Assembly (NCBI RefSeq): GCF_014174355.1
Contig: NZ_JABEQF010000001.1
Location: 124,001-188,000, forward strand
Reading direction: 5' to 3'
Origin: Gluconacetobacter azotocaptans
GTDB lineage: Bacteria; Pseudomonadota; Alphaproteobacteria; Acetobacterales; Acetobacteraceae
DNA: 64,000 nucleotides
Positions 35,663-49,383 of the stretch are shown one piece after another (the stretch's first letter is position 1; each line of letters starts with the position of its first letter). The position numbers and the translations under genes are program-made. The notes beneath the pieces were generated by a model. It was not told the DNA's origin. It made no database searches and saw only the letters and a list, made by a program, of their open reading frames with translations.

Positions 35663-35794
35663 TCAGGGTGTCAGGCCGACGGCCGCCATGACCAGATGCA
35701 TGGCGCCGGCGAAGACCCCCATGGCGGCCACGCCGGCCAGCCAGAGGGCGACCATCCACCCAAGCTGGGTGCGCGGCCGGAAAGGGATGCGCAT
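35663..35794 (-). CDS. DUF2474 small bd-oxidase subunit (CydX-like)
   Basis: A 43-residue protein, MRIPFRPRTQLGWMVALWLA then one transmembrane helix through VAAMGVFAGAMHLVMAAVG. DUF2474 miniproteins are encoded after cydB of short-Q-loop bd oxidases and probably play the CydX role of stabilising the haem site. The ATG overlaps the cydB stop by one base, so translation is coupled. Confidence 0.85.
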   Translation of the reverse strand: MRIPFRPRTQLGWMVALWLAGVAAMGVFAGAMHLVMAAVGLTP

Positions 35795-36807
35795 CAGTGA
35801 TATCCTTCCCCATGACGGACCTTGCCGCGGAACACGTAATAGGCCCAGGCCGTGTAGATCAGGATGAACGGGATCACGAACAATGCCCCCACCAGCGCGA
35901 AGCCCATGCTTTCCGGGGGGGCCGCCGCATCGCGCAGCGACAGGGCGGGCGGGATGATGTTCGGCCACAGGCTGATCCCCAGCCCGACATAGCCCAGCAG
36001 CATAAGGCCCAGCGACATCAGGAACGGCACGGCATGATTGCCCTGGGCGTTGCCGACGCTGCGCAGCAGCACGAAGGCGATCGCGATCACCAGCAGCGGC
36101 ACCGCGGCCAGGATCGCCATGTTGGGCATGGTGAACCAGCGGTCGGCGATGGCCTGGTGCAGCAGGGGCGTCCAGATGCTGACGATGGCGATGCAGGCCA
36201 GCAGGGCCAGCGTCAGCGGTTTCGCCAGGGTGCGCATCCGGTCATGCAGCGCGCCCTCGGTCTTGAATATCAGCCATGTCGCGCCCAGCAGCGCATAGGC
36301 CGCCAGCAGCGCCACGCCGGTGAACAGGCTGAAGGGCGAAACCCAGTCGAATGCGCCCCCGTCGTAGGACGGGCCGGTGACCTGCAGGCCGTTGATCAGC
36401 CCGCCCAGCACCCAGCCCTGGCAGAGGGTGGCCAGGATCGACCCGCCGGCGAACGCCTTGTCCCAGAAAGGACGATGGGCCTCGTCCGCCTTGAAGCGGA
36501 ATTCGAAGGCGACGCCACGGAAGATCAAGCCGCCCAGCATCAGCAGCAGCGGAATGTAGAATGCGCTGAGGACGACGGAATAGACGATCGGAAACGCCGC
36601 CATCAATCCGGCGCCGCCCAGCGCCAGCCAGGTCTCGTTCCCGTCCCACACCGGGGCGATGGTGTTGATCATCGTGTCCCGTTCCGTCCGGTCGGGGATG
36701 AACGGGAACAGCAGGCCGATGCCCAGGTCGAAGCCGTCCATCACGACATACATCAGCACCCCGAAGGCAATGATGATCGCCCAGACCAGCGGAAGATCGA
36801 TACCCAT
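35794..36807 (-). CDS. cydB: Cytochrome bd-type (cyanide-insensitive type) quinol oxidase subunit II
   Basis: A 337-residue inner-membrane subunit with about nine helices, starting MGIDLPLVWAIIIAFGVLMY and containing VMDGFDLGIGLLFPFI, APVWDGNETWLALGGAGLMA and FRGVAFEFRFKADEAHRPFW, all typical of CydB/CioB. With CydA it oxidises quinol and reduces oxygen. The start at 36807 is fixed by the conserved N-terminus; it lies 25 bp after the cydA stop. Confidence 0.95.
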   Translation of the reverse strand: MGIDLPLVWAIIIAFGVLMYVVMDGFDLGIGLLFPFIPDRTERDTMINTIAPVWDGNETWLALGGAGLMAAFPIVYSVVLSAFYIPLLLMLGGLIFRGVAFEFRFKADEAHRPFWDKAFAGGSILATLCQGWVLGGLINGLQVTGPSYDGGAFDWVSPFSLFTGVALLAAYALLGATWLIFKTEGALHDRMRTLAKPLTLALLACIAIVSIWTPLLHQAIADRWFTMPNMAILAAVPLLVIAIAFVLLRSVGNAQGNHAVPFLMSLGLMLLGYVGLGISLWPNIIPPALSLRDAAAPPESMGFALVGALFVIPFILIYTAWAYYVFRGKVRHGEGYH

Positions 36808-36832
36808 GTCTCTGGTTCCTTGGGGCTGAAGG

Positions 36833-38230
36833 TTACAGGTCGCCGAGATTCGGCGCGGCGGACATCGGGCGGGCAGGGCGCTCGTCGGGGCGCAAATCGT
36901 GGTCGTGGCCGGACAGGGCCTCGGGCGGCTTGGTGGCCAGGCGCAGCATGTACAGGACGCCGGTGCCGAAGATGCACACATACAGCACGACGAAGGTCAG
37001 CAGCGACGCCGTCAGCACCGGGACCGAATGGTTCGACACCGCGTCGCGGGTCCGCAGCACGCCATAGACCACCCAGGGCTGGCGGCCGATTTCGGTAGTG
37101 AACCAGCCGGCCAGGATGGCGATCAGCCCCGCCGGCCCCATGACCAGCGCGAAAGTCAGCAGCGGCCGGAAATCGTACAGCCGCCCGCGCCAACGCGCGA
37201 AGGCCGCGACCACGCCCAGCAGCAGCATCGCGACGCCCAGCCCGACCATGACGCGGAACGTCCAGAAGACGATGGTGGAATTGGGTCGGTCCTCGGCCGG
37301 GAAATCCTTCAGGGCCGGGATCTTGCCGTTCCAGGAATGGGTCAGGATCAGGCTGCCCACATGCGGCACGGCGATCTGGTAGCGGGTTTTTTCGGCCGCC
37401 ATGTCGGGCAGGCCGAACAGGATCAGCGGCACCTGGTCCTCGTCATTGTCCCAATGGCCTTCGATGGCCGCGATCTTGGCGGGCTGGTGTTCCAGCGTGT
37501 TCAGCCCGTGCTGGTCGCCGGCCTCGATCTGGATCGGGGCGACGATCAGGATCATCCACATCGCCATGGACATCATGCGCTTGACGGCGGGTGTGCGTTC
37601 GCCGCGCAGCAGGTGCCACGCCGCTGTGGCGCCGACGAACAGCGCCGTCGCCAGGAAGGCGGCCAGCACCATATGCGTGAAGCGGTAGGGAACCGAGGGG
37701 TTGAAGACGATCTGCAGCCAGTCGACCGGGATCACCCGCCCATCGACGATCCTGTATCCTACCGGCGTCTGCATCCAGCTGTTCGACACCAGGATCCAGG
37801 TGGCGGAAATCAGCGTGCCCAGCGCGACCATGGCGGTGGCAAACAGGTGCAGCCCCTTGCCCACCTTGTCCCAGCCGAACAGGGCGACACCCAGGAACCC
37901 GGCCTCGAGAAAGAAGGCCGTCAGGACTTCATAGGTCAGCAGAGGGCCGGTCACGGTGCCCGCCCGGGCTGAAAAATAGCTCCAGTTCGTGCCGAATTCG
38001 TAGGCCATCACCAGGCCGGACACCACGCCCATGGCGAAATTGACCGCGAAGATCTGCGACCAGTAGCGGCAGAGCTGAAGATAGACCGGGTCCTTTTTCC
38101 ACAGCCACAGCGCCTCGAGAAACGTCATGTAGCTGGCCAGGCCGATGGTGATGGCCGGAAAGATGATGTGGAAGGAAACCGTGAAGCCGAACTGGATGCG
38201 CGCCAGTTCCAATGCGCTCAGGCCGAACAT
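36833..38230 (-). CDS. cydA: Cytochrome bd-type (cyanide-insensitive type) quinol oxidase subunit I
   Basis: A 465-residue quinol oxidase subunit. Haem and quinol motifs: H21 in FGFTVSFHIIFP, GDQHGLNTLEHQPAKIAAIE in the Q-loop region, and EIGRQPWVVYGVLRTRDAVS. The short Q-loop and the GRQPW/LRTRDA form place it with the CioA group found in Gluconobacter and Pseudomonas, known for low cyanide sensitivity. The start at 38230 precedes the conserved N-terminus. Transcribed away from the MocR regulator, with motif-bearing DNA between. First gene of cydA-cydB-DUF2474. Confidence 0.95.
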   Translation of the reverse strand: MFGLSALELARIQFGFTVSFHIIFPAITIGLASYMTFLEALWLWKKDPVYLQLCRYWSQIFAVNFAMGVVSGLVMAYEFGTNWSYFSARAGTVTGPLLTYEVLTAFFLEAGFLGVALFGWDKVGKGLHLFATAMVALGTLISATWILVSNSWMQTPVGYRIVDGRVIPVDWLQIVFNPSVPYRFTHMVLAAFLATALFVGATAAWHLLRGERTPAVKRMMSMAMWMILIVAPIQIEAGDQHGLNTLEHQPAKIAAIEGHWDNDEDQVPLILFGLPDMAAEKTRYQIAVPHVGSLILTHSWNGKIPALKDFPAEDRPNSTIVFWTFRVMVGLGVAMLLLGVVAAFARWRGRLYDFRPLLTFALVMGPAGLIAILAGWFTTEIGRQPWVVYGVLRTRDAVSNHSVPVLTASLLTFVVLYVCIFGTGVLYMLRLATKPPEALSGHDHDLRPDERPARPMSAAPNLGDL

Positions 38231-38294
38231 GATGGTGCCTCCTTGCCGCGGGCCGGATGTCGGGATGGCGTGCCAGGCAATGCCGGAACAATAT

Positions 38295-38343
38295 CCATAC
38301 AAAATGAAAACAACGAACCCATATGTCCGCAAAATGTATGGGT
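38295..38343 (-). promoter_or_regulatory. Candidate regulator sites in the cydA promoter
   Basis: CCATACAAAAT at 38295 (TTGTATGG on the minus strand) and AATGTATGGGT ending at 38343. The second forms a dyad with ACCCATA at 38317-38323: perfect 7-bp arms, 13-base spacer. The same TGTATGG core occurs before the MocR gene and the Nit1C operon. About 65-110 bp upstream of cydA. Confidence 0.5.
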
Positions 38344-38536
38344 CAAGAGGAGGCATGCGAACCCCCGTCGCCTTGTGGAACGTGGCGGAACCGCAGGGGA
38401 TGCCTCGCCGGGCGCGGATTTCCCATATCGCCGCCCGGATGAGGGTGACTGCGGCGCAGGGACGCGGCAGCGGGCACCGTCCGACATGGGCGGGTTGTGT
38501 GCAGGGTATGGCTGGATTGGGCGGGAATTAGGGTAA

Positions 38537-38544
38537 TTGTATGG
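38537..38544 (+). promoter_or_regulatory. TTGTATGG site before the MocR gene
   Basis: AATTGTATGGATG at 38535-38547 carries the motif also found before cydA and the Nit1C operon. It covers an in-frame ATG at 38541, which argues that the real start of the regulator is the later ATG at 38598 and that the site serves autoregulation. Confidence 0.45.
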
Positions 38545-38597
38545 ATGTGCTGATGAATTGTCAGTATCACGGCCGTGCAACAGACCCCGAGAACCGA

Positions 38598-39998
38598 ATG
38601 TCCGCCGCTGACCTGATGCCTGGCTGGAAGCAGTATATCGACCGCAATGCCGGCCCCCTCTACCTGTCGATCGTCGAGGCGCTGGCGGAGTCCATCCGCC
38701 GGGACGAAATCCACGAGGGCGACCGGCTGCCGCCGCAGCGGGCGCTGGCCAAGGCGCTGGGCACGGACCTTACGACCGTCACCCGCGCCTTCGCCGAGGC
38801 CCGGCGGCGCGGCCTGATCGAGGCGACGGTCGGGCGGGGGACGTTCGTGCGCGTGGGCGCGACCGAGACGCGCTGGCGCAATGCCGGACGCGCGGTGGTC
38901 GACCTGACCATGAACCTGCCGCCGATCCCCGAGAACCCGTCGCTGCAGCAGCTGATCCAGAACGACATCAGCCGCATCCTGCGCCGGCAGGACCTGCATG
39001 CCCTGCTGTCCTATCGCGTGACCGGCGGTACCAGCGAGGAACGGCAACTGGCCGCCGACTGGATGAAGCCGATGCTGGGCGTGCGGCCGGCGGACGAGAT
39101 CCTGGTGGTGCCCGGGGCGCAGAGCGCGATGAGCGCCGTGGTCTCGACCCTGGCGGCGCCGGGCGACGTGATCGTGACCGACCGCTTCACCTATCCGGGT
39201 ATCCGCACCCTGGCGGCCCAGTTCGGGCTGTTGCTGGCCGGGGTGGACAGCGACCATGAGGGGATGGTGCCCGACCTGCTGGACCGGGCGTGCCGCCAGC
39301 ATCGGCCGCGCCTGATCTATTGCACGCCCACCATCCAGAACCCGACCACCGCCACCATGTCGCTGGCGCGGCGCGAAGCGATCCTGGCGGTCGCGAAGGC
39401 CCATAACGTGCAGATCCTGGAGGACGACCCCTACAGCCTGCTGCTGGACCAGCCGCCGCCGGCGCTGGCGGCGCTGGACCCGTCGCGCGTCTTCTACGTC
39501 TCGACCCTGGCGAAGGTGCTGTCGCCCGGCCTGCGGCTGGCGTTCCTGGTCGCCCCGCAGGACGCGGTCCAGCGCATGAGTTCGGCCGTCCGGGCGATTT
39601 CCCTGACCTGTTCGGGCCTGATGACCAGCCTGGTCGCGCGCTGGATGCAGGACGGCCAGGCGCAGGCGATCGTGCAGGCCATCCGCACGGAACTGCGCCT
39701 GCGCCAGACGGCGGCGCGCGCGATTTTGGGGGAGGGGCATTGCATGCACCCTGACGGCCCGCATGTCTGGCTGAAACTGCCGGACTGGTGGGGCAGCGTC
39801 GATTTCGTGTCCTACGCGCGCCGCCAGGGGCTGGGGCTGGTGCCCAGCACCGTCTTCACCGTCGAGGGCGAGCCCGCGCAGCGTGTGCGGATCGCGCTGG
39901 GCAGCGCCGCCACCCTCGACAGTCTGGAGGTGTCGCTGCATGGCGTCGTCTCGGTGCTGCAGCACAAGCGGTCGCCGGGTTACACCGACATCGTGTGA
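38598..39998 (+). CDS. MocR family PLP-dependent regulator (GntR HTH + aminotransferase-like domain)
   Basis: About 466 residues. N-terminal GntR-type winged helix (GPLYLSIVEALAESIRRDEI, DRLPPQRALAKALGTDLTTV, residues about 20-85) joined to a type I aminotransferase-like fold (VVPGAQSAMSAVVSTLAAPG, YCTPTIQNPTTATMS, LEDDPYSLLLDQ, and the PLP lysine in YVSTLAKVLSPGLRLAFL). MocR proteins sense PLP-linked amines or amino acids and usually control a neighbouring catabolic operon. It lies between cydAB and the Nit1C cluster, with TTGTATGG motifs before all three units. An earlier in-frame ATG at 38541 overlaps one motif. Confidence 0.9.
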   Translation: MSAADLMPGWKQYIDRNAGPLYLSIVEALAESIRRDEIHEGDRLPPQRALAKALGTDLTTVTRAFAEARRRGLIEATVGRGTFVRVGATETRWRNAGRAVVDLTMNLPPIPENPSLQQLIQNDISRILRRQDLHALLSYRVTGGTSEERQLAADWMKPMLGVRPADEILVVPGAQSAMSAVVSTLAAPGDVIVTDRFTYPGIRTLAAQFGLLLAGVDSDHEGMVPDLLDRACRQHRPRLIYCTPTIQNPTTATMSLARREAILAVAKAHNVQILEDDPYSLLLDQPPPALAALDPSRVFYVSTLAKVLSPGLRLAFLVAPQDAVQRMSSAVRAISLTCSGLMTSLVARWMQDGQAQAIVQAIRTELRLRQTAARAILGEGHCMHPDGPHVWLKLPDWWGSVDFVSYARRQGLGLVPSTVFTVEGEPAQRVRIALGSAATLDSLEVSLHGVVSVLQHKRSPGYTDIV

Positions 39999-40173
39999 CC
40001 GGCATGCTTTAGGGCTGTTCGCCCATGCACCGACAATATGGACATTATTCGTTTTTTCGCATCGGCGGAAAAAGTCCGCGTTTTCGGTCGCTTGGGGGTG
40101 TCTGGCCGGCATTGCATGGGGACGGCCGAGGAAATGTCGGGGGATGAATGGCGGCGTTCCGTCCGGCATGGGG

Positions 40174-40239
40174 AAATTGTATGGTTTTGTATGTAATTGC
40201 GTCTGGATGTGACCCTTGAGGATTGTCGTTATTGTATGT
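40174..40239 (+). promoter_or_regulatory. Three TTGTATG repeats in the Nit1C operon promoter
   Basis: TTGTATGG at 40177, TTGTATGT at 40187 and TTGTATGT at 40232, all in the same orientation; the first two are one helical turn apart. MocR-type regulators often bind direct repeats. They lie 65-130 bp before the first gene. The rest of the 305 bp between the regulator and this operon holds no gene. Confidence 0.55.
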
Positions 40240-40303
40240 CACGACTCTGCCTGTCAGTTCACACGGTCACGGCCCCGCGCCGTGCCCTGGCAGGAGAATC
40301 CCG

Positions 40304-40786
40304 ATGCCCAAGGTCGAACATGCCCCGCACAAGGACGGCGACATCTTCGTCGATTATGAAAACAAGGTCTTCGAGGACGTAAAGGCCCAGCCGGGCGAGA
40401 AGGCGCTGGTCACCTTCCATACCGTCGCGTTCGAAGGGTCGATCGGTTTCGTCAATCTGCTGCAGGCGACGCGTCTGATCCGCAAGGGGTTCGACACGTC
40501 GGTGCTGCTGTATGGTCCCGGCGTGACGCTGGGCGTGCAGCGCGGCTTCCCCCGGCTGGGGGACGAGGCCTTTCCCGGCCATATGAACGCCAACCGCCAG
40601 ATCGTGAAGATCCTTGAAGAGGGCGGCAAGGTTTATGCCTGCCGCTTCGCCCTGCAGGCGCTGTACGGCCATGGCGAGCAGTCGCTGATCCCGGGCATCA
40701 CCCCGATCAACCCGCAGGACGTGCTGGACCTGATCCTGCTGGCGCGACGGGACAATGCCTTCATCCTCGATACCTGGACGGTCTGA
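40304..40786 (+). CDS. MSMEG_0572/Sll0783 family nitrogen starvation response protein
   Basis: A 160-residue protein, the first gene of the Nit1C set. It begins [20 protein letters not shown] and contains [20 protein letters not shown] and [19 protein letters not shown], then a single cysteine in [20 protein letters not shown], a DsrE-like alpha/beta outline. The Synechocystis homologue Sll0783 is induced by nitrogen starvation and needed for polyhydroxybutyrate accumulation; its biochemical role is unknown. GGAG lies before the ATG at 40304. 22 bp from nit1. Confidence 0.92.
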
Positions 40787-40808
40787 ACCTGAGGCGCGGG
40801 AGGGGACG

Positions 40809-41786
40809 ATGAACCGCATGATCCGGGCGGCGGCGGCGCAGATCGCCCCCGTCTTCGACGAGACGGGGCTGGGCACCGCCGGGAAAATCTGCCGCACCAT
40901 CGCAGACGCCGCGCAACAGGGCGTGCAAATCATCGTCTTTCCCGAAACCATCGTGCCGTACTATCCCTATTTCTCGTTCATCCGTCCGGCATTCCGGATG
41001 GGGGCGGAGCATCTGGCGCTGTACGACCGCGCGGTCGTCGTGCCCGGCCCGGTGACCGAGATGGTGGGCGCCGCGGCACGGGCGGCCGGGATGGTCGTCG
41101 TGCTGGGCGTCAACGAACGCGATGGCGGCACGCTGTACAACACGCAGCTGGTCTTCGACGCGACGGGCGATCTGATCCTGAAACGGCGCAAGATCACGCC
41201 GACCTATCACGAACGCATGGTCTGGGGGCAGGGCGACGGCGCGGGGCTGAGGGTGGTGGACAGCGCGGCCGGACGGATCGGCGCGCTGGCCTGTTGGGAA
41301 CATTACAACCCGCTGGCCCGTTACGCGCTGATGACCCAGCATGAGGAAATCCATTGCGCGCAATTTCCCGGATCGCTGGTGGGGCAGGTCTTCGCCGACC
41401 AGATGGAGGTAACGATCCGACATCATGCGCTGGAATCGGGATGTTTCGTCATCAACGCGACGGGATGGCTGTCCGACGGGCAGATCGCCGACATCGCCGG
41501 CGACCCGGCATTGGAAGGCCCACTGCGCGGCGGCTGCTTCACCGCCATCGTCTCGCCGGAAGGAAAATTGCTGGCGGAACCACGGCGCGAGGGCGAGGGG
41601 CTGGTGATCGCCGACCTCGATTTCGGCCTGATTGCCAAGCGCAAGCGGATGATGGATTCGGTCGGTCATTACGCGCGTCCCGAACTGCTGAGCCTGCTGC
41701 ACGACCGCCGCCCGGCTCGGACGGTCCATTACCGGGACGATCCACCCGAAGGGGTGGAACCCGACAGTCTTCAGGACAGGACATAA
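40809..41786 (+). CDS. nit1: Nit1 nitrilase of the Nit1C cluster
   Basis: A 325-residue member of the nitrilase branch of the C-N hydrolase superfamily, converting nitriles to acid and ammonia in the cytoplasm. The triad is complete: E46 in [11 protein letters not shown]128 in [20 protein letters not shown] and C162 in [18 protein letters not shown]. The start at 40809 follows GAGGGGACG. Nit1-type enzymes sit in a conserved cluster linked in cyanotrophic pseudomonads to use of cyanide as nitrogen source. Confidence 0.95.
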
Positions 41787-41790
41787 GACG

Positions 41791-42900
41791 ATGCCGATCC
41801 CCGCCGCCGCGCCGACCGACAGCCGCCGGCTGATCACCGACCTTCAGTCGCTGGGCCTGCAAATGGCCGACTGCGGCGACGGCGTCACCCGCAAGGGGGG
41901 CGCGGGTCCGTCGGACCACAAGGCGGTGACGGTCGCCGGCCAGACCATCATGGTGCCGATCTACACGATGGGCGCGCGTCGTTCGCCCTTCCTGGCCGAC
42001 CCGCCCGATGCACGCGGGGGCAGCGTGCTGCGGCACGAAGGCCGGCCGGTCGGCACCATCCGCTTTCCCACGCCGCCGCGCTTCTATGGGCTGCACACGG
42101 CGGACGGTATTCCGTACTGGAAAATTGCTTTGCTGCACGGGCGCGATACGCTGGCGACCACGGTGCACCAGACCTGTATCCGCTATGCCGACCGGCGCAC
42201 GTCGTGCCAGTTCTGCGCCATCGGCCAGTCGCTGGAGGCCGGGCGCACCATCGCCTACAAGACGCCGCAGCAACTGGCCGAGGTCGCGCGCGCGGCCGTC
42301 GAACTGGACGGCGTGCGGGACATGGTGCTGACGACCGGCACCCCCAACATGGTCGATCGCGGTGCGGCGGTGCTGGCGGACAGCACGGCGGCCATCAAGG
42401 CGGCGGTCGATCTGCCCATCCAGGTGCAGTGCGAACCGCCGCGCGACCCTGCCTGGTTCGCCCGCCTGCGCGCCGCAGGCGCCGACAGCCTGGGCATGCA
42501 TCTGGAAGCCGCGACCCAGGACGTGCGGGCGCGGATCATGCCGGGCAAGGCGACCGTCAGCGTCGATCGCTACATGGACGCCTTTGCCGAGGCGGTGCCG
42601 GTGTTCGGCCGGGGGCAGGTGAACACCTACATCCTCGCCGGGCTGGGCGACACGGCAGAGCAGATCCTGGCACTGGCCCAACGGCTGATCGCGCTGGGCG
42701 TCTATCCGTTCGTCGTGCCGTTCGTGCCCATTACCGGCACGCCGCTGGAGCACCATCCGGCGCCGACGCCCGATTTCATGCGCGCGGTGCTGGCCCCGCT
42801 GGGGCGGATGCTGCGCGCGGCGGACATGCGGTCGTCCACCATCAAGGCGGGGTGCGGCCGGTGCGGCGCCTGTTCGGCGCTGTCGGCCTACGAGGACTGA
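41791..42900 (+). CDS. MSMEG_0568 family radical SAM protein
   Basis: A 369-residue radical SAM enzyme of the Nit1C cluster, with biotin-synthase/NifB-like layout. The SAM iron-sulfur cysteines are C129, C139 and C142 in QTCIRYADRRTSCQFCAIGQ, spaced CX9CX2C rather than the classic CX3CX2C. A second cysteine set, C355, C358 and C361 in AGCGRCGACSALSAY at the very C-terminus, could bind an auxiliary cluster. Substrate unknown. Starts 4 bp after the nitrilase stop and is followed 3 bp later by the GNAT gene. Confidence 0.93.
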   Translation: MPIPAAAPTDSRRLITDLQSLGLQMADCGDGVTRKGGAGPSDHKAVTVAGQTIMVPIYTMGARRSPFLADPPDARGGSVLRHEGRPVGTIRFPTPPRFYGLHTADGIPYWKIALLHGRDTLATTVHQTCIRYADRRTSCQFCAIGQSLEAGRTIAYKTPQQLAEVARAAVELDGVRDMVLTTGTPNMVDRGAAVLADSTAAIKAAVDLPIQVQCEPPRDPAWFARLRAAGADSLGMHLEAATQDVRARIMPGKATVSVDRYMDAFAEAVPVFGRGQVNTYILAGLGDTAEQILALAQRLIALGVYPFVVPFVPITGTPLEHHPAPTPDFMRAVLAPLGRMLRAADMRSSTIKAGCGRCGACSALSAYED

Positions 42901-42903
42901 GCG

Positions 42904-43461
42904 ATGGATACCGACCGGTTCGACGCCCCGCCCTTCGCCCCCAGCGAATATATCGTCCGGTTGGCCCGCACGCGCTGGGAAAGGGCGGGGCATTTCGCGC
43001 TGCGCCGCGCGGTCTTCTGTCACGAACAGCGCGTCTTCGCGACGGACGACCGTGATGCGACCGACGATGCCGCGATCCCCATCGTCGCCGCCTGCTGCGT
43101 CGCGGGCCTGCCCGAACAGGTGGTGGGCGCGGTGCGGATCCATGAATCGGAGCCGGGCCTGTGGCATGGGTCGCGGCTGGCAGTGCATGCCGACCATCGG
43201 CGGCTGGGCCGTATCGGCGGTGAACTGATCCGCATGGCCGTCTGCACCGCGCACGGGCTGGGCGCCACGCGCTTCCTGGCGCAGGTGCAGGCGCAGAACG
43301 TGCCGTTCTTCCGCCGGCTGCACTGGCGCAGCCTGAACGAAATTACCCTGCACGGCCTGCCGCACCATGTCATGGAAGCCGACCTGGCGCACTACCTGCC
43401 CCATGGGTGCGAGCAGACCTGGCTGCTGCGGCCGCAGCGCGCGGCGCGGAGGCGGGCGTGA
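42904..43461 (+). CDS. MSMEG_0567 family GNAT acetyltransferase
   Basis: A 185-residue GNAT protein of the Nit1C cluster. The N-terminal part FALRRAVFCHEQRVFATDDR and the acetyl-CoA region VHADHRRLGRIGGELIRMAV are recognisable, followed by FLAQVQAQNVPFFRRLHWRS. It may acylate an intermediate made by the nitrilase/radical SAM pair. Its stop overlaps the next gene (GTGA). In some genomes it is fused to the AIR-synthase-like protein that follows, consistent with physical coupling. Confidence 0.9.
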   Translation: MDTDRFDAPPFAPSEYIVRLARTRWERAGHFALRRAVFCHEQRVFATDDRDATDDAAIPIVAACCVAGLPEQVVGAVRIHESEPGLWHGSRLAVHADHRRLGRIGGELIRMAVCTAHGLGATRFLAQVQAQNVPFFRRLHWRSLNEITLHGLPHHVMEADLAHYLPHGCEQTWLLRPQRAARRRA

Positions 43462-44432
43462 CGGTGCCCGACCTGACGGCATTGGCCCGCCAGATCCGCC
43501 AGGGGCGGGCGCTGGCGGCCAAGCACGACATCGCCGGGGTCGTGGCGCGGCTGGGGCTTCCCGCCGAAGGGTTGCCGCGCCTGGGGGATGATTGCGCCGC
43601 CATTCCGGACGGCGACGGTTTCCTGCTGTTCGCCACCGAAGGGTTTCAGGACGAGTTCGTCCGGTCCATGCCGTGGTTCGCGGGCTATTGCGGCATCATG
43701 GTCAATGCCGGCGACGTGGCGGCCATGGGCGGGCGGCCCATCGCCGTGGTCGATGCGCTGTGGAGTCGCGATGGCGACCAGGCGGCGCCGATCCTGCACG
43801 GGCTGGCGTGCGGCGCACGCACCTACGGTATTCCGGTGCTGGGTGGGCATACCAATCTGCGCGCCGGCCAGCAGGCCTTGTCGGTCGCGATCCTGGGTCG
43901 CGCCCGTCGCCTGCTGACCAGCTTCGACGCCTACCCCGGCGAGGCGCTGGTCGCGGCCATCGACCTGCGCGGCCGCTGGCACGATCCGCACCCGTTCTGG
44001 GATGCCAGTTCCGCGCTGTGCGACACCGAGGCGGCGGGGCGCCTGCGCGGGGACCTGGATATCCTGCCCGGCATTGCCGAGGACGGGCTGAGCCGCGCCG
44101 CCAAGGATATCAGCATGGCCGGCCTGGTCGGCACGGCCCTGATGCTGGCGGAATGTTCGCGCATCGCCATCACCATCGACCTTGGCGCCATTCCCGCACC
44201 GTCGGGCGTGGACATGGGGCGGTGGCTGGCGGCTTTCCCCAGCTACGGCTTCCTGCTGACCGCGCGGCCGGACGACGTGCCCGCCATCCTGGCCCGTTTC
44301 GCCGCGCGTGGCATCGCGGCGTCGGCCATCGGCGCCTGCCAGGACGGGACGCGCGTGGACGTGATCCGCGACGGGGCGCGCGAAACGGTCTGGGACCTGG
44401 CGCGGGCGCCGCTGATGGGATGCGCGCCATGA
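43458..44432 (+). CDS. AIR synthase-related protein, Sll0787 family
   Basis: About 324 residues of the PurM/SelD/ThiL ATP-binding fold. Visible are RLGDDCAAIPDGDGFLLFAT with the metal/ATP aspartates, GIMVNAGDVAAMGGRPIAVV and VLGGHTNLRAGQQALSVAIL. The family is found only in Nit1C clusters and probably phosphorylates or activates the cluster's substrate. I take the GTG at 43458 that overlaps the GNAT stop; an ATG at 43407 lies inside the previous gene. The stop overlaps the glycosyltransferase start. Confidence 0.9.
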   Translation: MTVPDLTALARQIRQGRALAAKHDIAGVVARLGLPAEGLPRLGDDCAAIPDGDGFLLFATEGFQDEFVRSMPWFAGYCGIMVNAGDVAAMGGRPIAVVDALWSRDGDQAAPILHGLACGARTYGIPVLGGHTNLRAGQQALSVAILGRARRLLTSFDAYPGEALVAAIDLRGRWHDPHPFWDASSALCDTEAAGRLRGDLDILPGIAEDGLSRAAKDISMAGLVGTALMLAECSRIAITIDLGAIPAPSGVDMGRWLAAFPSYGFLLTARPDDVPAILARFAARGIAASAIGACQDGTRVDVIRDGARETVWDLARAPLMGCAP

Positions 44433-45574
44433 CGCGGCGGATCGGCATCGTGGCGCATTCCACCAATCCGCGCGGCGGCGTCGTGCATGCCCTGCACCTG
44501 GCCGAGGCCCTGTGCGCGGCGGGCGACGACGCCGTCCTGATCGCGCCGGACGTCGCGGGGCGCGGGTTCTTTCGCCGGCCGGCCTGCCCGGTGATGTGCA
44601 TCCCCGCGCGGCCCGAGGCCGATGTCGCGTCGATGGTCGAACGGCGGATCGTCGAAATCCGCGATGCCGTGCGGGGGATGCGGCTGGATATCGTCCACGC
44701 GCAGGATCCGATCGGCGCGAACGCGCTGGCCGATCTGGTCGCCGAAGGGGCGCTGCCCGGCTTCGTCCGGACGGTGCATCATCTGGACCGGTTCGACGAT
44801 GCGCGCCTGGCGCGGCGGCAGGATCGGGGCGTCCAGGCGGCGACGCAACTGTTGTGTGTCAGCGACATGTGGCGGGCCGTGCTGCGCGACCAGTATGGAC
44901 GTGACGCCCAGTGCGTCGGCAACGGCGTCGATGTGCGGCAGTACTGGCCGCAGGCCGACGCGCGTGACGACAGTATCCGTCAGGCCCTGGGGCTGAAGGA
45001 CGATGCCGTCATCGTCCTGGCCGTGGGCGGGGTGGAGGCACGCAAGAACACCATCGCTCTTTTCGAAGCCTGCCTGGCGTTGCGGGGGGAATGTCCGCGC
45101 CTGCATCTGGTGATCGCCGGCGGGGCGACATTGCTGGATCACGGGGCCTATCGCGCTGCCTTCGACGCCCGGGTACGCGCCGCCGGCGCCGACAACTGGG
45201 TCACGCGGGCCGGGGTGATGGCGGATGAAGCCATGCCGGCGCTGTACCGCGCGGCGCATGTCCTGGCCTACCCGTCGGTGTCCGAAGGGTTCGGGCTGTG
45301 CCCGCTGGAAGCCCTGGCCTGCGGCGTTCCCGTCGTGCTGCCGCGTCAGGCGCCATTCAGCGAACATCTGGGGGCCGACGATGCCGTGTGGTGCGACCCC
45401 GGTGACGCCGCCAGCCTGTACCGGGCGATGGGCTGCGCGCTGCGGGACGAAACGCGGCGATCCTTCCGCGTGCGGGGGCCGAAGGCTGCCGGCCGTTTCA
45501 CCTGGGCGGCGGTCGCCGCCGCCCATCGTCCCGCCTATGACCGCCTGTCCGGAAAGGCCGCCCTCCATGCCTGA
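44429..45574 (+). CDS. MSMEG_0565 family GT4-type glycosyltransferase
   Basis: A 381-residue glycosyltransferase of GT-B fold, retaining GT4 style. The acceptor-side loop is HSTNPRGGVVHALHLAEALC and the nucleotide-sugar site is YPSVSEGFGLCPLEALACGV with the EX7E-like glutamates. Present in all full Nit1C clusters, it suggests that the cluster's product is glycosylated or that a sugar carrier holds the intermediate. ATG overlaps the upstream stop (ATGA). Confidence 0.92.
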   Translation: MTRRIGIVAHSTNPRGGVVHALHLAEALCAAGDDAVLIAPDVAGRGFFRRPACPVMCIPARPEADVASMVERRIVEIRDAVRGMRLDIVHAQDPIGANALADLVAEGALPGFVRTVHHLDRFDDARLARRQDRGVQAATQLLCVSDMWRAVLRDQYGRDAQCVGNGVDVRQYWPQADARDDSIRQALGLKDDAVIVLAVGGVEARKNTIALFEACLALRGECPRLHLVIAGGATLLDHGAYRAAFDARVRAAGADNWVTRAGVMADEAMPALYRAAHVLAYPSVSEGFGLCPLEALACGVPVVLPRQAPFSEHLGADDAVWCDPGDAASLYRAMGCALRDETRRSFRVRGPKAAGRFTWAAVAAAHRPAYDRLSGKAALHA

Positions 45575-45863
45575 AATGCTGTTTCACGTCCGCTGGCCGG
45601 ACGGCACGGAAAGCCGGTGCTATTCGCCGTCGCTGGTCGTCGCCGATCATCTGGCCTGCGGGCAATCCTATCGCGTGCCGGATTTCCTGGCCCGCAGCCG
45701 CGCGGCCCTGACCGAGGCCAGTGCGCGGGTGCAGGCCCGGTACGGTTTCCCCTGCGGCCGCGCACTGGCGCAACGCGACGAGATCGAGCGCCGATGCGCC
45801 GCTTTCGCCGATACGCCCGACGCGCAGGTTCATGTCGTGGGCTTCGATCAACACTCATCCTGA
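45567..45863 (+). CDS. MSMEG_0570 family nitrogen response protein
   Basis: A 98-residue protein typical of Nit1C: MPEMLFHVRWPDGTESRCYS, then SYRVPDFLARSRAALTEASA and VHVVGFDQHSS at the end. Function unknown; small, soluble, possibly a binding or chaperone subunit for the flavoprotein that follows. It overlaps the glycosyltransferase end by 8 bp. Confidence 0.92.
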   Translation: MPEMLFHVRWPDGTESRCYSPSLVVADHLACGQSYRVPDFLARSRAALTEASARVQARYGFPCGRALAQRDEIERRCAAFADTPDAQVHVVGFDQHSS

Positions 45864-45880
45864 TATCAGGAGACGCTATC

Positions 45881-47125
45881 ATGACAGAGACGAAATGCCC
45901 CGTAGTGATCGTGGGCGGGGGACAGGCGGGCCTGTCGCTGAGCTGGTATCTCTGCCGCCTGGATGTGGCCCATGTGGTGCTGGAGGCCCGCACCGCCTGC
46001 CATGCCTGGGAGGACGAACGTTGGGACAGTTTTTCGCTGGTGACGCCCAACTGGCAATGCGACCTGCCGGGCCATCCCTACCGGGGTGACGATCCGCACG
46101 GCTTCATGGTCAAGCAGCAGATCGTGGAGTACGTGCAGGGATTCGTGAAATCCTTCGATCCGCCCCTGCGGTGCGGTGTGCGCGTGACCGGCGTCAGCCG
46201 TGCGGACGGCGGCTATCGGGTCGAGACGACCGACGGCGTCTATGTGGCCGCGCATGTCGTGATCGCGACCGGCGCCTATAGCGAGGCGGTCATTCCCGGA
46301 TATGCCAGCGCCATCGATCCGGCGATCGCGCAGATCCATTCCCAGTCCTATCGCAATCCGCACGCCCTGCCCGAGGGCGCGGTGCTGGTCGTCGGCAGCG
46401 GGCAGTCGGGCGCGCAGATCGTCGAGGATCTGCATCTGGCGGGACGCAAGGTGCATCTGTGCGTCGGTAACGCTCCGCGCGTCTCGCGCTTCTATCGCGG
46501 CCGCGATGTGGTCGACTGGCTTGCCGACATGAAATTCTACGACCTCACTGTCGACCAGCATCCACTGCGCGACGGCGCGCGGGACAAGACGAACCATTAC
46601 GTCACCGGCCGCAATGGCGGCCACGATCTGGATCTGCGCCAGTTCGCTCTGGAAGGCGTCGCCCTGCATGGCAGCCTGAAGAACATTCGCGACGACATCG
46701 CATGTTTTGGAAACGACCTGGCTGCAAACCTGGACGATGCCGATCGGACCAATGCGAACATCAAGGCGTCGATCGACGCCTATATCGCCCGCGAGGACCT
46801 CACGGCGCCGACGGAGGCGCCTTATGTGCCGGTCTGGACACCGGACGGGACGGATGCATCGCTGGACCTGAAGGCGGCGGGCATCACCAGCATCATCTGG
46901 TGCATCGGCTTTCGGCCGGACTATCGCTGGATCGACGTGCCGGTGTTCAACGGGCGGGGACAGCCGGTCTGGTACCGGGGCGAGACCGAGCAGCCGGGCC
47001 TGGCCTTTCTGGGCCTGCCCTGGCAACACACCTGGGGATCGGCGCGGTTTTCCGGCATTTCCCGCGATGCCGCCTATCTGGCGGGCAGGATCGTCGGGCG
47101 TGCGGTGCCGGTCGCCGGCGCGTAA
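45881..47125 (+). CDS. MSMEG_0569 family flavin-dependent oxidoreductase
   Basis: A 414-residue FAD protein of the flavin monooxygenase/trans-2-enoyl style: FAD motif VIVGGGQAGLSLSWYLCRL at the N-terminus, a second dinucleotide motif VLVVGSGQSGAQIVEDLHLA near residue 170, and the C-terminal GLPWQHTWGSARFSGISRDA. It probably oxidises the small molecule made by the cluster. CAGGAGACG precedes the ATG at 45881. It is the last canonical Nit1C gene; an acyl-CoA synthetase follows after 6 bp. Confidence 0.93.
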   Translation: MTETKCPVVIVGGGQAGLSLSWYLCRLDVAHVVLEARTACHAWEDERWDSFSLVTPNWQCDLPGHPYRGDDPHGFMVKQQIVEYVQGFVKSFDPPLRCGVRVTGVSRADGGYRVETTDGVYVAAHVVIATGAYSEAVIPGYASAIDPAIAQIHSQSYRNPHALPEGAVLVVGSGQSGAQIVEDLHLAGRKVHLCVGNAPRVSRFYRGRDVVDWLADMKFYDLTVDQHPLRDGARDKTNHYVTGRNGGHDLDLRQFALEGVALHGSLKNIRDDIACFGNDLAANLDDADRTNANIKASIDAYIAREDLTAPTEAPYVPVWTPDGTDASLDLKAAGITSIIWCIGFRPDYRWIDVPVFNGRGQPVWYRGETEQPGLAFLGLPWQHTWGSARFSGISRDAAYLAGRIVGRAVPVAGA

Positions 47126-47131
47126 CGCCCC

Positions 47132-48898
47132 ATGCTTCCCTGGACGACCCACCGCGATATGATGGCGGCGTATCACGCCGATCCTGACGGGTTCTGGCTG
47201 TCGGCGGCGCGCCGCGTCTCCTGGGTGCGTCCTCCCGAAGGGGCCGCCACGCGGCGTGCCGACGGATGGCATGACTGGTTCGCCGGCGGGTGGCTGAACA
47301 GTTGCTACAACGCTGTCGATCGTCATGTTGATGCCGGCCACGGGGACCGTGACGCCCTGATCTGGCATGGCGAGGCGGCCGGGGCCAGCGAAACCCTGAC
47401 CTATGCGGCGCTGTGCGCGCGGGTCGCGGGGTTTGCCGGGGGCCTGCGTGACCTGGGCGTCAGGACGGGGGACCGTGTCCTGATTTCCATGCCCAGCCTG
47501 CCGGAAACCGTGATCGCCATGCTGGCCTGCGCCCGTCTGGGTGCCATCCATGTCGTCGTCTTCGGGGGCTATGCCGCGCGGGAACTGGCGACGCGAATCG
47601 ACGACACCACGCCGGTGGTCGTGATTTCGGCCACCTGCGGGTTCCAGGGCCGGACGATGGTCCCCCATATGCCGTTGCTGGAACAGGCCCTGGCGCTGGC
47701 CCTCCATCGCCCGTCGGCCTGCGTGGTGGTGCAGCGGCCGGCCTGTCCGGTCAGGCTGCGACCCGGACGCGACTACGATTTCCATGCGCTGGAACGTCAC
47801 GCCCCGGCCGACCCGGTCGCCGTGCGGGCCGAAGACCCGCTTTATATCCTGCATACGTCGGGCACGACCGGCGCGCCCAAGGGGGTGGTGCGCGACAATG
47901 GCGGCCATGCTGTGGCTCTGGCCCTGTCGATGGAGCTGATCTACGGCATGGCGCCGGGGCAGGTCTTCTTCACCACGTCCGACCTGGGATGGGTGGTCGG
48001 GCATTCCTACGCGGTCTATGGGCCGCTGCTTGCCGGCTGCACCAGCCTGTTCGCCGAAGGGCCGCTGGATGCGCGGGCGATCCTGCCGCTGTGCGCCCGG
48101 CATCGGGTCCGGATTTTGTTCACCACGCCGACCAGCCTGCGGCTGATGCGCCGGCAGGCGGGCGATGGCCCGCTGTCCGGCGGCCCGGATCTGGCGGCGG
48201 TGTTCGTGGCGGGGGAACGGTCGGACCCGGAGCTGCTGGCCTGGGCGGAGCGGGGCCTCGGCCGGCCGGTCCTGGATCATTGGTGGCAGACCGAGACGGG
48301 ATGGAGCATCGTGGGGCCCACTCTGGGCCTGCGGGAGGCGGACCTGACCGCGCGGCCGGGGCCGGGTTTCGACCTTCAGGTGCGCGAAGGGGAATTGATG
48401 CTGCGCCTGCCCCTGCCGCCGGGGTGCCTGTCGGGGGTCTGGCGCGGTGTGGATTTTCCGGACCGTTATCTGGACGCGACGGGGCACTATTACCGGACCT
48501 TCGATGTCGGCGCGCTGGGGGCGGACGGCACGGTCCGGCTGACGGCGCGGCTGGACGACGTCATCAAGGTCGCCGGCCGGCGGATCGCCAGCGGCCAGCT
48601 GGAAGACGTGATCGCGGCCCATCCGATGGTGGGCGAATGCGCGGTGGTGGGGGTGCCCAGCGGGCTGCGGGGTGAGATTCCCGTGGCCTATGTCGTGCCC
48701 TCCGCATCGGGCGTTACGCCGGGTCTGGGGGCGGATCTGGTGGATCTGGTAAGGCGGCAGATCGGCCCGTTCACCGGCCTGCGGGACGTCGTCTTTGTGG
48801 GCAGCCTGCCACGTACGCGCTCGGGCAAGATCGTGCGCCGGGCGTTGCGCGACAGGCCATCGCGAGAGGCCGCAGCCGAGTCCATCCCCACCGCATAG
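47132..48898 (+). CDS. Acyl-CoA synthetase (acetyl/propionyl-CoA synthetase-like)
   Basis: A 588-residue AMP-forming ligase. The phosphate loop is [20 protein letters not shown], the adenylation motif is [13 protein letters not shown], and the C-terminal catalytic lysine is in [15 protein letters not shown]. Layout and N-terminus ([12 protein letters not shown]) resemble propionyl-CoA synthetase. It would activate a short carboxylic acid, which a nitrilase would generate. It starts 6 bp after the MSMEG_0569 gene, so it is in the Nit1C transcript even though it is not a canonical member. Confidence 0.9.
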
Positions 48899-48909
48899 GA
48901 GGAAGACGC

Positions 48910-49383
48910 ATGTCCGAAACCCGTCCCCCCGTGCCGCCGTTCACGGCCGAAACCGCCACCCGCAAGGTGCGGGGCGCCGAAGATGGCTGGAACAGCTGCG
49001 ACCCGCATCGCGTCTCGCTGGTCTACACGCCCGACAGTTTCTGGCGGAACCGGTCGGAATTCATCCAGGGCCGGCCGGCGATCATCGCCTTCCTGACCCA
49101 CAAATGGCAGGCCGAGCGGGAGTATCGGCTGATCAAGGAATTGTGGGCCTTTACGGGTGACAGGCTGGCCGTCCGCTTTGCCTACGAATGGCACGATGCG
49201 GCCGGAAACTGGTTCCGGTCCTATGGCAATGAAAATTGGGAATTCGATGCGCACGGGCTGATGCGCCGGCGCTTCGCCAGCATCAACGACCTGCCGATCC
49301 GCGAGGATGAACGCAAATTCTTCTGGGACCGCGCGGGGCCGCGCCCGGCCGATCATCCGGGCCTGTCGGACCTGGGCTTGTAG
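48910..49383 (+). CDS. DUF1348/SnoaL-like nuclear transport factor 2 fold protein
   Basis: A 157-residue protein of the DUF1348 family (NTF2-like): [40 protein letters not shown] and [20 protein letters not shown]. No reaction is known; NTF2-like folds often bind or isomerise small molecules. A strong ribosome site (AGGAGGAAGACGC) lies before the ATG, 11 bp after the synthetase stop. Last gene of the run; a hairpin repeat follows. Confidence 0.9.

Follow-up and report, generated by a model that had tools for sequence, protein, structure and literature searches.

The window is a stretch of 64,000 nucleotides from Gluconacetobacter azotocaptans, bases 124001-188000 of contig 1 of a 4.13 Mb assembly. 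It contains a locus at which the genes of a cytochrome bd oxidase (cydA, cydB and DUF2474) run leftward, and a mocR regulator gene, eight Nit1C genes, an acetyl/propionyl-CoA-synthetase-like (ACS-like) gene and a DUF1348 gene run rightward (Table 1). The locus is considered here as a possible case of cyanide-resistant respiration and Nit1C under one MocR regulator. A first-pass annotation, made from the sequence alone, had named cydA, cydB, DUF2474, mocR and eight Nit1C genes, and Pfam and NCBIfam profile scores placed all of them on the strands it had given. The eight Nit1C families were contiguous and co-directional, each scoring above its NCBIfam curated cut-off. The overlaps and gaps of a few bases described for the whole rightward run do not apply at its start: ~305 bases lie between mocR and the first Nit1C gene, and Nit1C therefore has its own promoter region. 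The span 35663-49383 assigned to the locus also takes in two final genes, ACS-like and DUF1348, that are not canonical Nit1C members, the rest being as named.

The window nitrilase was 98% identical to that of G. johannae and 96% to that of G. tumulisoli, and its closest solved structure was 3wuy (E 9e-144). MocR combined a GntR helix-turn-helix domain with an aminotransferase class I/II domain; the best NCBIfam model, EhuR, stayed below its threshold (407 of 480 bits). The presumed pyridoxal 5'-phosphate (PLP) lysine, K313, aligned with the MppQ lysine and was present in 114 of 114 relatives.

Alignment of the window CydA with E. coli CydA (6rko) paired residue 312 with residue 312 and residue 315 with residue 380, leaving ~65 residues of the Q-loop missing. 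In a tree the protein fell in the same clade as CioA of a Pseudomonas aeruginosa plasmid record, the Cio name being that record's annotation, and CydB was 64.5% identical to the protein annotated CioB in such a record. Assignment of the window enzyme to the cyanide-insensitive oxidase (CIO) type, as the first-pass annotation had proposed, is supported by these features, and cyanide resistance itself is predicted. A DUF2474 gene after cydB is given as a character of CIO subtype C (PMC5322542; papers are cited by PMC number for those portions of their text that were available), which the window resembles in its short Q-loop CydA and in DUF2474 directly following cydB, the MocR-Nit1C partner being its own. 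One cydB was found in the whole genome, and the enzyme is the only bd oxidase found there. The cydB gene was 48-51% like those of several congeners. The possibility that cydAB is a foreign import was rejected: CydA of the window type clustered with the CIOs of two congeners in which these are unlinked (G003 and G013), and it is therefore no recent import. Both the CydA tree and the MocR tree used below were quick trees with support from the SH-like approximate likelihood ratio test (SH-aLRT) alone.

The TTGTATG motif around mocR

Alignment of the mocR-Nit1C gaps of acetic acid bacteria brought up a repeated heptamer, TTGTATG. Gaps were taken from loci with mocR beside the first Nit1C gene within 1.5 kb, 86 in total, with expected motif counts from first-order Markov simulations and the ranking of 7-mers from base composition. 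TTGTATG occurred in 29 of 30 co-directional gaps, with two or more copies in 28 and a mean of 2.53 against 0.057 expected. In the 19 gaps that remained after de-duplication of these 30 it was the top 7-mer (present in 18, with 43 copies in all where 0.85 were expected). A single co-directional gap, L081, did not come from an acetic acid bacterium. Of 32 co-directional loci, 29 had a copy no more than 150 bases upstream of mocR; of 56 divergent mocR-Nit1C gaps, just 4 contained the motif. The window contained it six times in 64 kb against 1.5 expected, and five of the six lay in the gaps on either side of mocR, with single copies ahead of cydA and of mocR and three ahead of Nit1C. Among direct pairs, the orientation searched, two copies within 40 bases occurred here alone in the genome (two overlapping matches, control 0). 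The gap of Komagataeibacter europaeus (L150) held two direct copies and one inverted copy (13299, 13321, 13392), a layout matching the design described for MocR/PdxR sites in the available text of PMC4944035.

All four linked genomes carried one TTGTATG directed toward cydA, beginning 72, 72, 73 and 76 bases before its start, where the chance of one copy in 120 bases is 0.9-1.5% per linked genome. The cydA-mocR gap of G. aggeris was identical to that of the window at 158 of 317 positions, and the heptamer was nonetheless kept, as were a TCTTGACC block, a GACAT-AT block and the mocR-side CCATACAAT. We read TTGACC, with an AT-rich block ~17 bases on, as the putative cydA promoter, which would have TTGTATG just 3' of it. 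An automatic scan reported another leftward promoter-like pair at 38564-38536, its second hexamer inside the mocR-side motif; either candidate would place a TTGTATG copy at the cydA promoter.

The motif was then compared with the presence of MocR at cydA genes. Of 20 cydA rows with no MocR of this family within 900 bases, 19 lacked TTGTATG in the 900 upstream bases; the exception, Aminobacter L157, had TTGTATG before cydA and a MocR of the family at the opposite side of cydAB. The rows with MocR near cydA numbered 11 (9 distinct loci), and seven had TTGTATG upstream of cydA at a distance of at most 900 bases. The remaining four (L137/L155, L179, L180) had mocR as the first gene and TTGTATG upstream of it, so that all nine distinct loci with MocR beside cydA had the motif at the shared or operon promoter. 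Fisher tests of motif against MocR proximity gave p values of 0.013 (300 bases) and 0.0009 (900 bases), which are indicative only, the tests taking related loci as independent and counting two loci twice (L033/L130, L137/L155).

Distribution of the pairing and of the MocR family

The Nit1C loci compared were the best 80 of 553 nitrilase relatives, fetched with flanks of up to 10 kb and leaning to close kin: 21 from acetic acid bacteria (12 with the full 10 kb on both sides) and 59 from other bacteria (47 full). None of the 59 loci outside acetic acid bacteria gave a cydA or cydB match, within the flanks so obtained. Four of the 21 acetic acid bacterial loci carried cyd genes. The divergent arrangement of the window was shared by G. 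johannae (L028), G. tumulisoli (L029) and G. aggeris (L033), and in Acetobacter tropicalis (L031) cydAB lay downstream of Nit1C. In G. aggeris ~6.1 kb stood between mocR and the first Nit1C gene (L033:3347-9494).

Nit1C scored above the cut-off in 12 of 14 Gluconacetobacter genomes and cydB was present in all 14. The two lay within ~11 kb in four of the 12 Nit1C-positive genomes (G000, G001, G006, G011), the last three of which correspond by position to G. aggeris, G. johannae and G. tumulisoli; in the other eight cydB was on a separate contig or more than 1 Mb off. The co-occurrence in related genomes to which the first-pass annotation had looked is thus found in part of the genus and is not general, given its absence from the 59 other loci. 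Across 180 genomes of the bacterial family 15 had Nit1C and at least 145 had cydB, and among the matches listed the two were close in five of the 15 (G000, G006, G085, G153, G146); in G146 the closeness spans the ends of a 228,264-base contig. All four genomes in the genus of G085 had Nit1C, and three had cydAB downstream; in the fourth, G190, no cydB was found genome-wide, and its Nit1C contig stops before the ACS-like gene. The divergent CIO-MocR-Nit1C pairing is lineage-specific.

A second pairing was found on plasmids of Acetobacter and Komagataeibacter, where the annotations of K. europaeus pKE1446-1 and A. oryzoeni give MocR, Nit1C, ACS-like, cydA, cydB and DUF2474 in that order and one direction. 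The window nitrilase matched 525 plasmid records at E <=1e-60, 25 of them acetic acid bacterial (17 Acetobacter, 8 Komagataeibacter); 373 Klebsiella plasmid records also held a relative at this threshold. By comparison of coordinates, cydB was adjacent after Nit1C in 7 of the 25 (H1, H2, H3, H4, H7, H8, H11). In H13 the distance was ~13.6 kb and included genes for an IS3 transposase and a Dyp-type peroxidase; in H9, H10, H16 and H17 cydB lay further away on the same plasmid, and H12 had a distant, partial cydB. The other 12 showed no cydB among 18 records at >=80% identity. The plasmid-type CydA clade (support 100) differs from that of the window (support 99), and the two pairings therefore look independent. 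In A. pasteurianus pAPA01-011 an IS1380 transposase lies 3' of the ACS-like gene, at the position of cydAB in pKE1446-1 (L149:22673-24058).

MocR itself was far more widely associated with Nit1C. At >=33% identity all 21 acetic acid bacterial loci had it, with reversed orientation in L039 alone, as did 57 of the 59 others, where it was mostly divergent from Nit1C. The idea of MocR as a bridge unique to the window locus was rejected, since a MocR stood at 78 of the 80 Nit1C loci. The window MocR is a Nit1C regulator of a wider group, joined to cydAB only secondarily. Of 35 further loci of MocR relatives (L155-L157, L162-L177, L179-L194), 26 had TTGTATG no further than 400 bases from mocR; mocR adjoined a DUF983 gene in 17 and cydA in six (one a 165-base piece), and five were Nit1C loci. 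Of ten proteins scanned at such loci eight matched Pfam DUF983, the exceptions being a small L163 protein with no family and a radical SAM protein of L162. At L163 (8298-8803), L164 and L165 a MocR relative (54-57%) had copies of TTGTATG next to it, with no Nit1C in the fetched stretch; a small membrane-protein-like frame followed it in L163 and L164, that of L163 being the one without a Pfam family.

Among 337 Alphaproteobacteria at least 22 had such a MocR (E <=1e-85) and 39 a close cydB (E <=1e-105); the two occurred together in seven genomes and side by side in four (window, G256, G468, G471). The MocR searches scored just nine and four candidates per genome, so their counts are lower bounds. 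G256 and G468 are of one genus. CIO genes also adjoin MocR relatives in Roseomonas; R. gilardii U14-5 has two TTGTATG copies between mocR-cydAB and a divergent hemA (5-aminolevulinate synthase) gene (L155:13425-13617). Two genomes have a MocR copy for each neighbour, in G471 for DUF983-cydAB and for Nit1C, in G454 for DUF983 and for Nit1C, which indicates that the arms merged in the window are run elsewhere by sister regulators. Nit1C-linked and CIO/DUF983-linked proteins were intermixed in the MocR tree, which hints that one signal may serve both arms.

Proposed shared control of CIO and Nit1C

With a probability of about 0.6, we propose that one PLP-binding MocR co-controls cyanide-resistant respiration through CIO together with Nit1C. 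MocR would bind TTGTATG in the cydA-mocR gap, acting on the divergent CIO operon and on mocR itself, and again in the mocR-Nit1C gap. On the appearance of cyanide, a nitrile or a PLP-cyanide adduct it would change state. CIO would then sustain quinol oxidation during a block of the haem-copper oxidases, and Nit1C, nitrilase first, would turn a cyanide-derived nitrile into usable ammonium. The proposed joining of both arms through one MocR, as put forward in the first-pass annotation, draws support from the shared, conserved candidate operator and from the second pairing in other acetic acid bacteria.

Two known systems resemble this arrangement in part. In P. pseudoalcaligenes CECT 5344 mocR is divergent from the cio cluster, cioAB...nit4, which is overproduced with a cyanide-containing residue (PMC8567248, PMC11049912, PMC6989483), and in a MocR mutant the cio proteins are said, as unpublished data, to be constitutive (PMC8567248). 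CECT 5344 is like the window in having a CIO divergent from mocR and a nitrilase gene in the cluster, the two MocRs being likened by description. Its nitrilase is Nit4 (3-cyanoalanine), however, and its Nit1C lies elsewhere (BN5_1630-1637) under the sigma-54 type regulator NitA (PMC11049912), whereas in the window MocR stands between CIO and a complete Nit1C. In P. aeruginosa the MocR-like MpaR is required for cyanide-dependent expression of ccoN4, a terminal oxidase subunit, and its authors propose cyanide-modified PLP as the signal (PMC10790758). Here too, in the available text, a MocR-like regulator with a PLP domain stands beside a terminal-oxidase gene, the regulators again being likened by description, but the MpaR target is a haem-copper oxidase subunit with the motif ATCTGAT and that of the window would be CIO with TTGTATG. 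The window MocR is not classed as MpaR because ATCTGAT is absent from its gaps and its motif is TTGTATG. Cyanide appears the likeliest signal because of these two precedents, and the P. pseudoalcaligenes case suggests that MocR may act as a repressor at cydA. The available text of PMC5320631, PMC4944035 and PMC6677901 adds that cytochrome oxidase and redox genes are frequent targets of MocR factors and that one MocR subgroup pairs with membrane proteins (YczE); nitrilase is unmentioned in the main texts of the three papers, and cyanide and DUF983 in the two searched for each.

Several observations weigh against shared control. We infer the binding of TTGTATG by MocR, its effect on expression, the effector and the physiology from the layout, the CIO type, the shared conserved motif and the recurrence of CIO, Nit1C and the MocR family together. 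The automatic scan did not call the TTGACC promoter before cydA. The window is closely related to G. johannae and G. tumulisoli, and conservation on the cydA side thus rests on two diverged lineages, and many of the 20 motif-negative cydA rows are near-identical plasmid copies. TTGTATG is absent from 52 of the 56 divergent mocR-Nit1C gaps, including L039 and those of four other genomes of the family, and from the co-directional L145; it therefore does not serve every Nit1C MocR as operator. None of six plasmid-type gaps separating the ACS-like gene from cydA contained it, and TTGTATG co-control, unsupported there, does not explain the plasmid pairing. The precedent motif ATCTGAT occurred three times in the window against 5.0 expected, with none in either gap flanking mocR, and no DUF983 gene was found in the window's own genome. 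The oxidase, as the sole bd enzyme found in that genome, must serve ordinary needs too.

This last point suits the best-surviving rival, in our judgement unlikely, that MocR controls itself and Nit1C only and that cydAB is a general-purpose oxidase placed there by rearrangement and answering oxygen, acid or redox cues. The conserved pair is indeed MocR-Nit1C (21 of 21 acetic acid bacterial loci and 57 of 59 others), 8 of 12 Nit1C-positive Gluconacetobacter have cydB more than 1 Mb off or on a different contig, and the mocR-side TTGTATG would be expected regardless of cydA from its presence at 29 of 32 loci. Such an account leaves aside the extra TTGTATG at a fixed distance before cydA in four of four linked genomes, surviving in a gap only 50% alike, as well as the MocR relatives that adjoin CIO genes in other families and the second joining of a bd oxidase to Nit1C on plasmids. 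It is rather improbable that organic nitriles or nitrogen starvation, not cyanide, provide the signal or substrate, with CIO recruited because Nit1C activity upsets respiration or calls for an electron sink. NCBIfam labels three of the Nit1C proteins nitrogen-starvation proteins, and in the available text of PMC8567248 3-cyanoalanine induces NitC in P. pseudoalcaligenes and not the cio proteins, except HisC; but a bd oxidase has been paired with Nit1C twice and MocR relatives stand at CIO, DUF983 and hemA genes, all of which suits a respiratory poison, and MpaR provides a precedent for cyanide as signal. A pairing that arose as a by-product of mobile cyanide or nitrile islands, by joint transfer without shared control, fits the plasmids, where 7 of 25 have cydB directly beside Nit1C and five more (H9, H10, H13, H16, H17) carry it elsewhere on the plasmid, insertion sequence (IS) elements surround the Nit1C loci in the records viewed and no common motif precedes cydA, but seems doubtful for the window, whose CydA is chromosomal, clusters with G003 and G013 of its own genus without recent import and has TTGTATG in its predicted promoter region.

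Shared control by MocR would have a simple rationale, as the use of cyanide requires respiration to survive during cyanide intake. If one MocR ties both arms, the locus would offer a small, testable model of bacterial cyanide sensing via PLP chemistry, and TTGTATG a handle for further targets in Alphaproteobacteria, including a role for DUF983, perhaps a terminal-oxidase helper. More tentatively, and with chances that seem to us somewhat short of even, the MocR subfamily with a TTGTATG operator may form an alphaproteobacterial cyanide-sensing regulon of CIO and DUF983, with Nit1C in acetic acid bacteria, its arms on separate MocR copies in some genomes and under one regulator in the G. johannae group, whose locus would then be a compact respire-and-eat switch for cyanide. 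Vinegar and plant-associated acetic acid bacteria would be candidates for cyanide use; Gluconacetobacter diazotrophicus reportedly grows on cyanide, in work attributed to Jones et al., 2018. In Pseudomonas, nit1C allows growth on cyanide or nitriles as nitrogen source. The Pseudomonas cyanide-assimilation cluster and that of the window share all eight genes, of the canonical families TIGR04042-04049, and differ in that the window has MocR in place of NitA, an additional ACS-like and DUF1348 gene, and CIO divergent next door. In the literature searched, outside which most subscription journals lie, no title or abstract opening named CIO beside Nit1C and no mention of the TTGTATG motif was found. 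As far as could be seen, the parts are known, and CIO and Nit1C under one regulator with a shared motif would be a new variant.

Accessory genes and feature coordinates

Table 1. Features of the cydAB-mocR-Nit1C locus, in positions of the window.
Feature	Position	Strand	Basis and remarks
DUF2474 small subunit (CydX-like)	35663..35794	-	PF10617 39.2 bits vs cut-off 26.6; probably 43 amino acids, start from reading frame
cydB/cioB, bd oxidase subunit II	35794..36810	-	PF02322 334 bits; TIGR00203 above cut-off
cydA/cioA, bd oxidase subunit I, short Q-loop	36833..38230	-	PF01654 548 bits; start probably 38230
Candidate MocR operator TTGTATG before cydA	38296..38302	-	5' end 72 bases from cydA; kept in L028, L029, L033
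Candidate MocR operator TTGTATG before mocR	38537..38543	+	motif scan
mocR (GntR helix-turn-helix and aminotransferase-like domain)	38577..39998	+	PF00392, PF00155; longest frame from 38541, homologues begin later
TTGTATG x2, starts 10 bases apart, before Nit1C	40177..40193	+	motif scan
Third TTGTATG before Nit1C	40232..40238	+	66-72 bases from first Nit1C gene
MSMEG_0572/Sll0783 family protein (NitB type)	40304..40786	+	TIGR04044 276 bits
Nit6803-family nitrilase (NitC type)	40809..41786	+	TIGR04048 555 bits vs 502.6
Radical SAM protein, MSMEG_0568 family	41791..42900	+	TIGR04043
GNAT acetyltransferase, MSMEG_0567 family	42904..43461	+	TIGR04045
AIR-synthase-like, sll0787 family	43458..44432	+	TIGR04049
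Glycosyltransferase, MSMEG_0565 family	44429..45574	+	TIGR04047
Small protein, MSMEG_0570 family	45567..45863	+	TIGR04042
Flavin-dependent oxidoreductase, MSMEG_0569 family	45881..47125	+	TIGR04046
Acetyl/propionyl-CoA-synthetase-like (ACS-like), accessory	47132..48898	+	PF00501/PF13193/PF16177; below AcsA/PrpE cut-offs
DUF1348, accessory	48910..49383	+	PF07080 218 bits

The ACS-like gene was found at >=40% identity in 20 of the 21 acetic acid bacterial Nit1C loci and in one of the 59 others (L049, 43%). The single acetic acid bacterial locus that had none, L035, is a short contig. Of the 21 acetic acid bacterial loci fetched, just L028 and L029 had the DUF1348 gene. DUF1348 genes of 65-73% identity were also seen at three Nit1C loci outside acetic acid bacteria (L053, L072, L090) and near the unlinked cydA of G013 (L136). 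In G013 the gene lies 1.7 kb from cydA, with a frame that by eye resembles an acyltransferase in between, and nothing comparable was seen in G003. At the other end of the locus, the window has AbrB, isochorismatase-like and TetR genes between an Nramp gene and DUF2474, and G. johannae is without them (L028:4826-4859).

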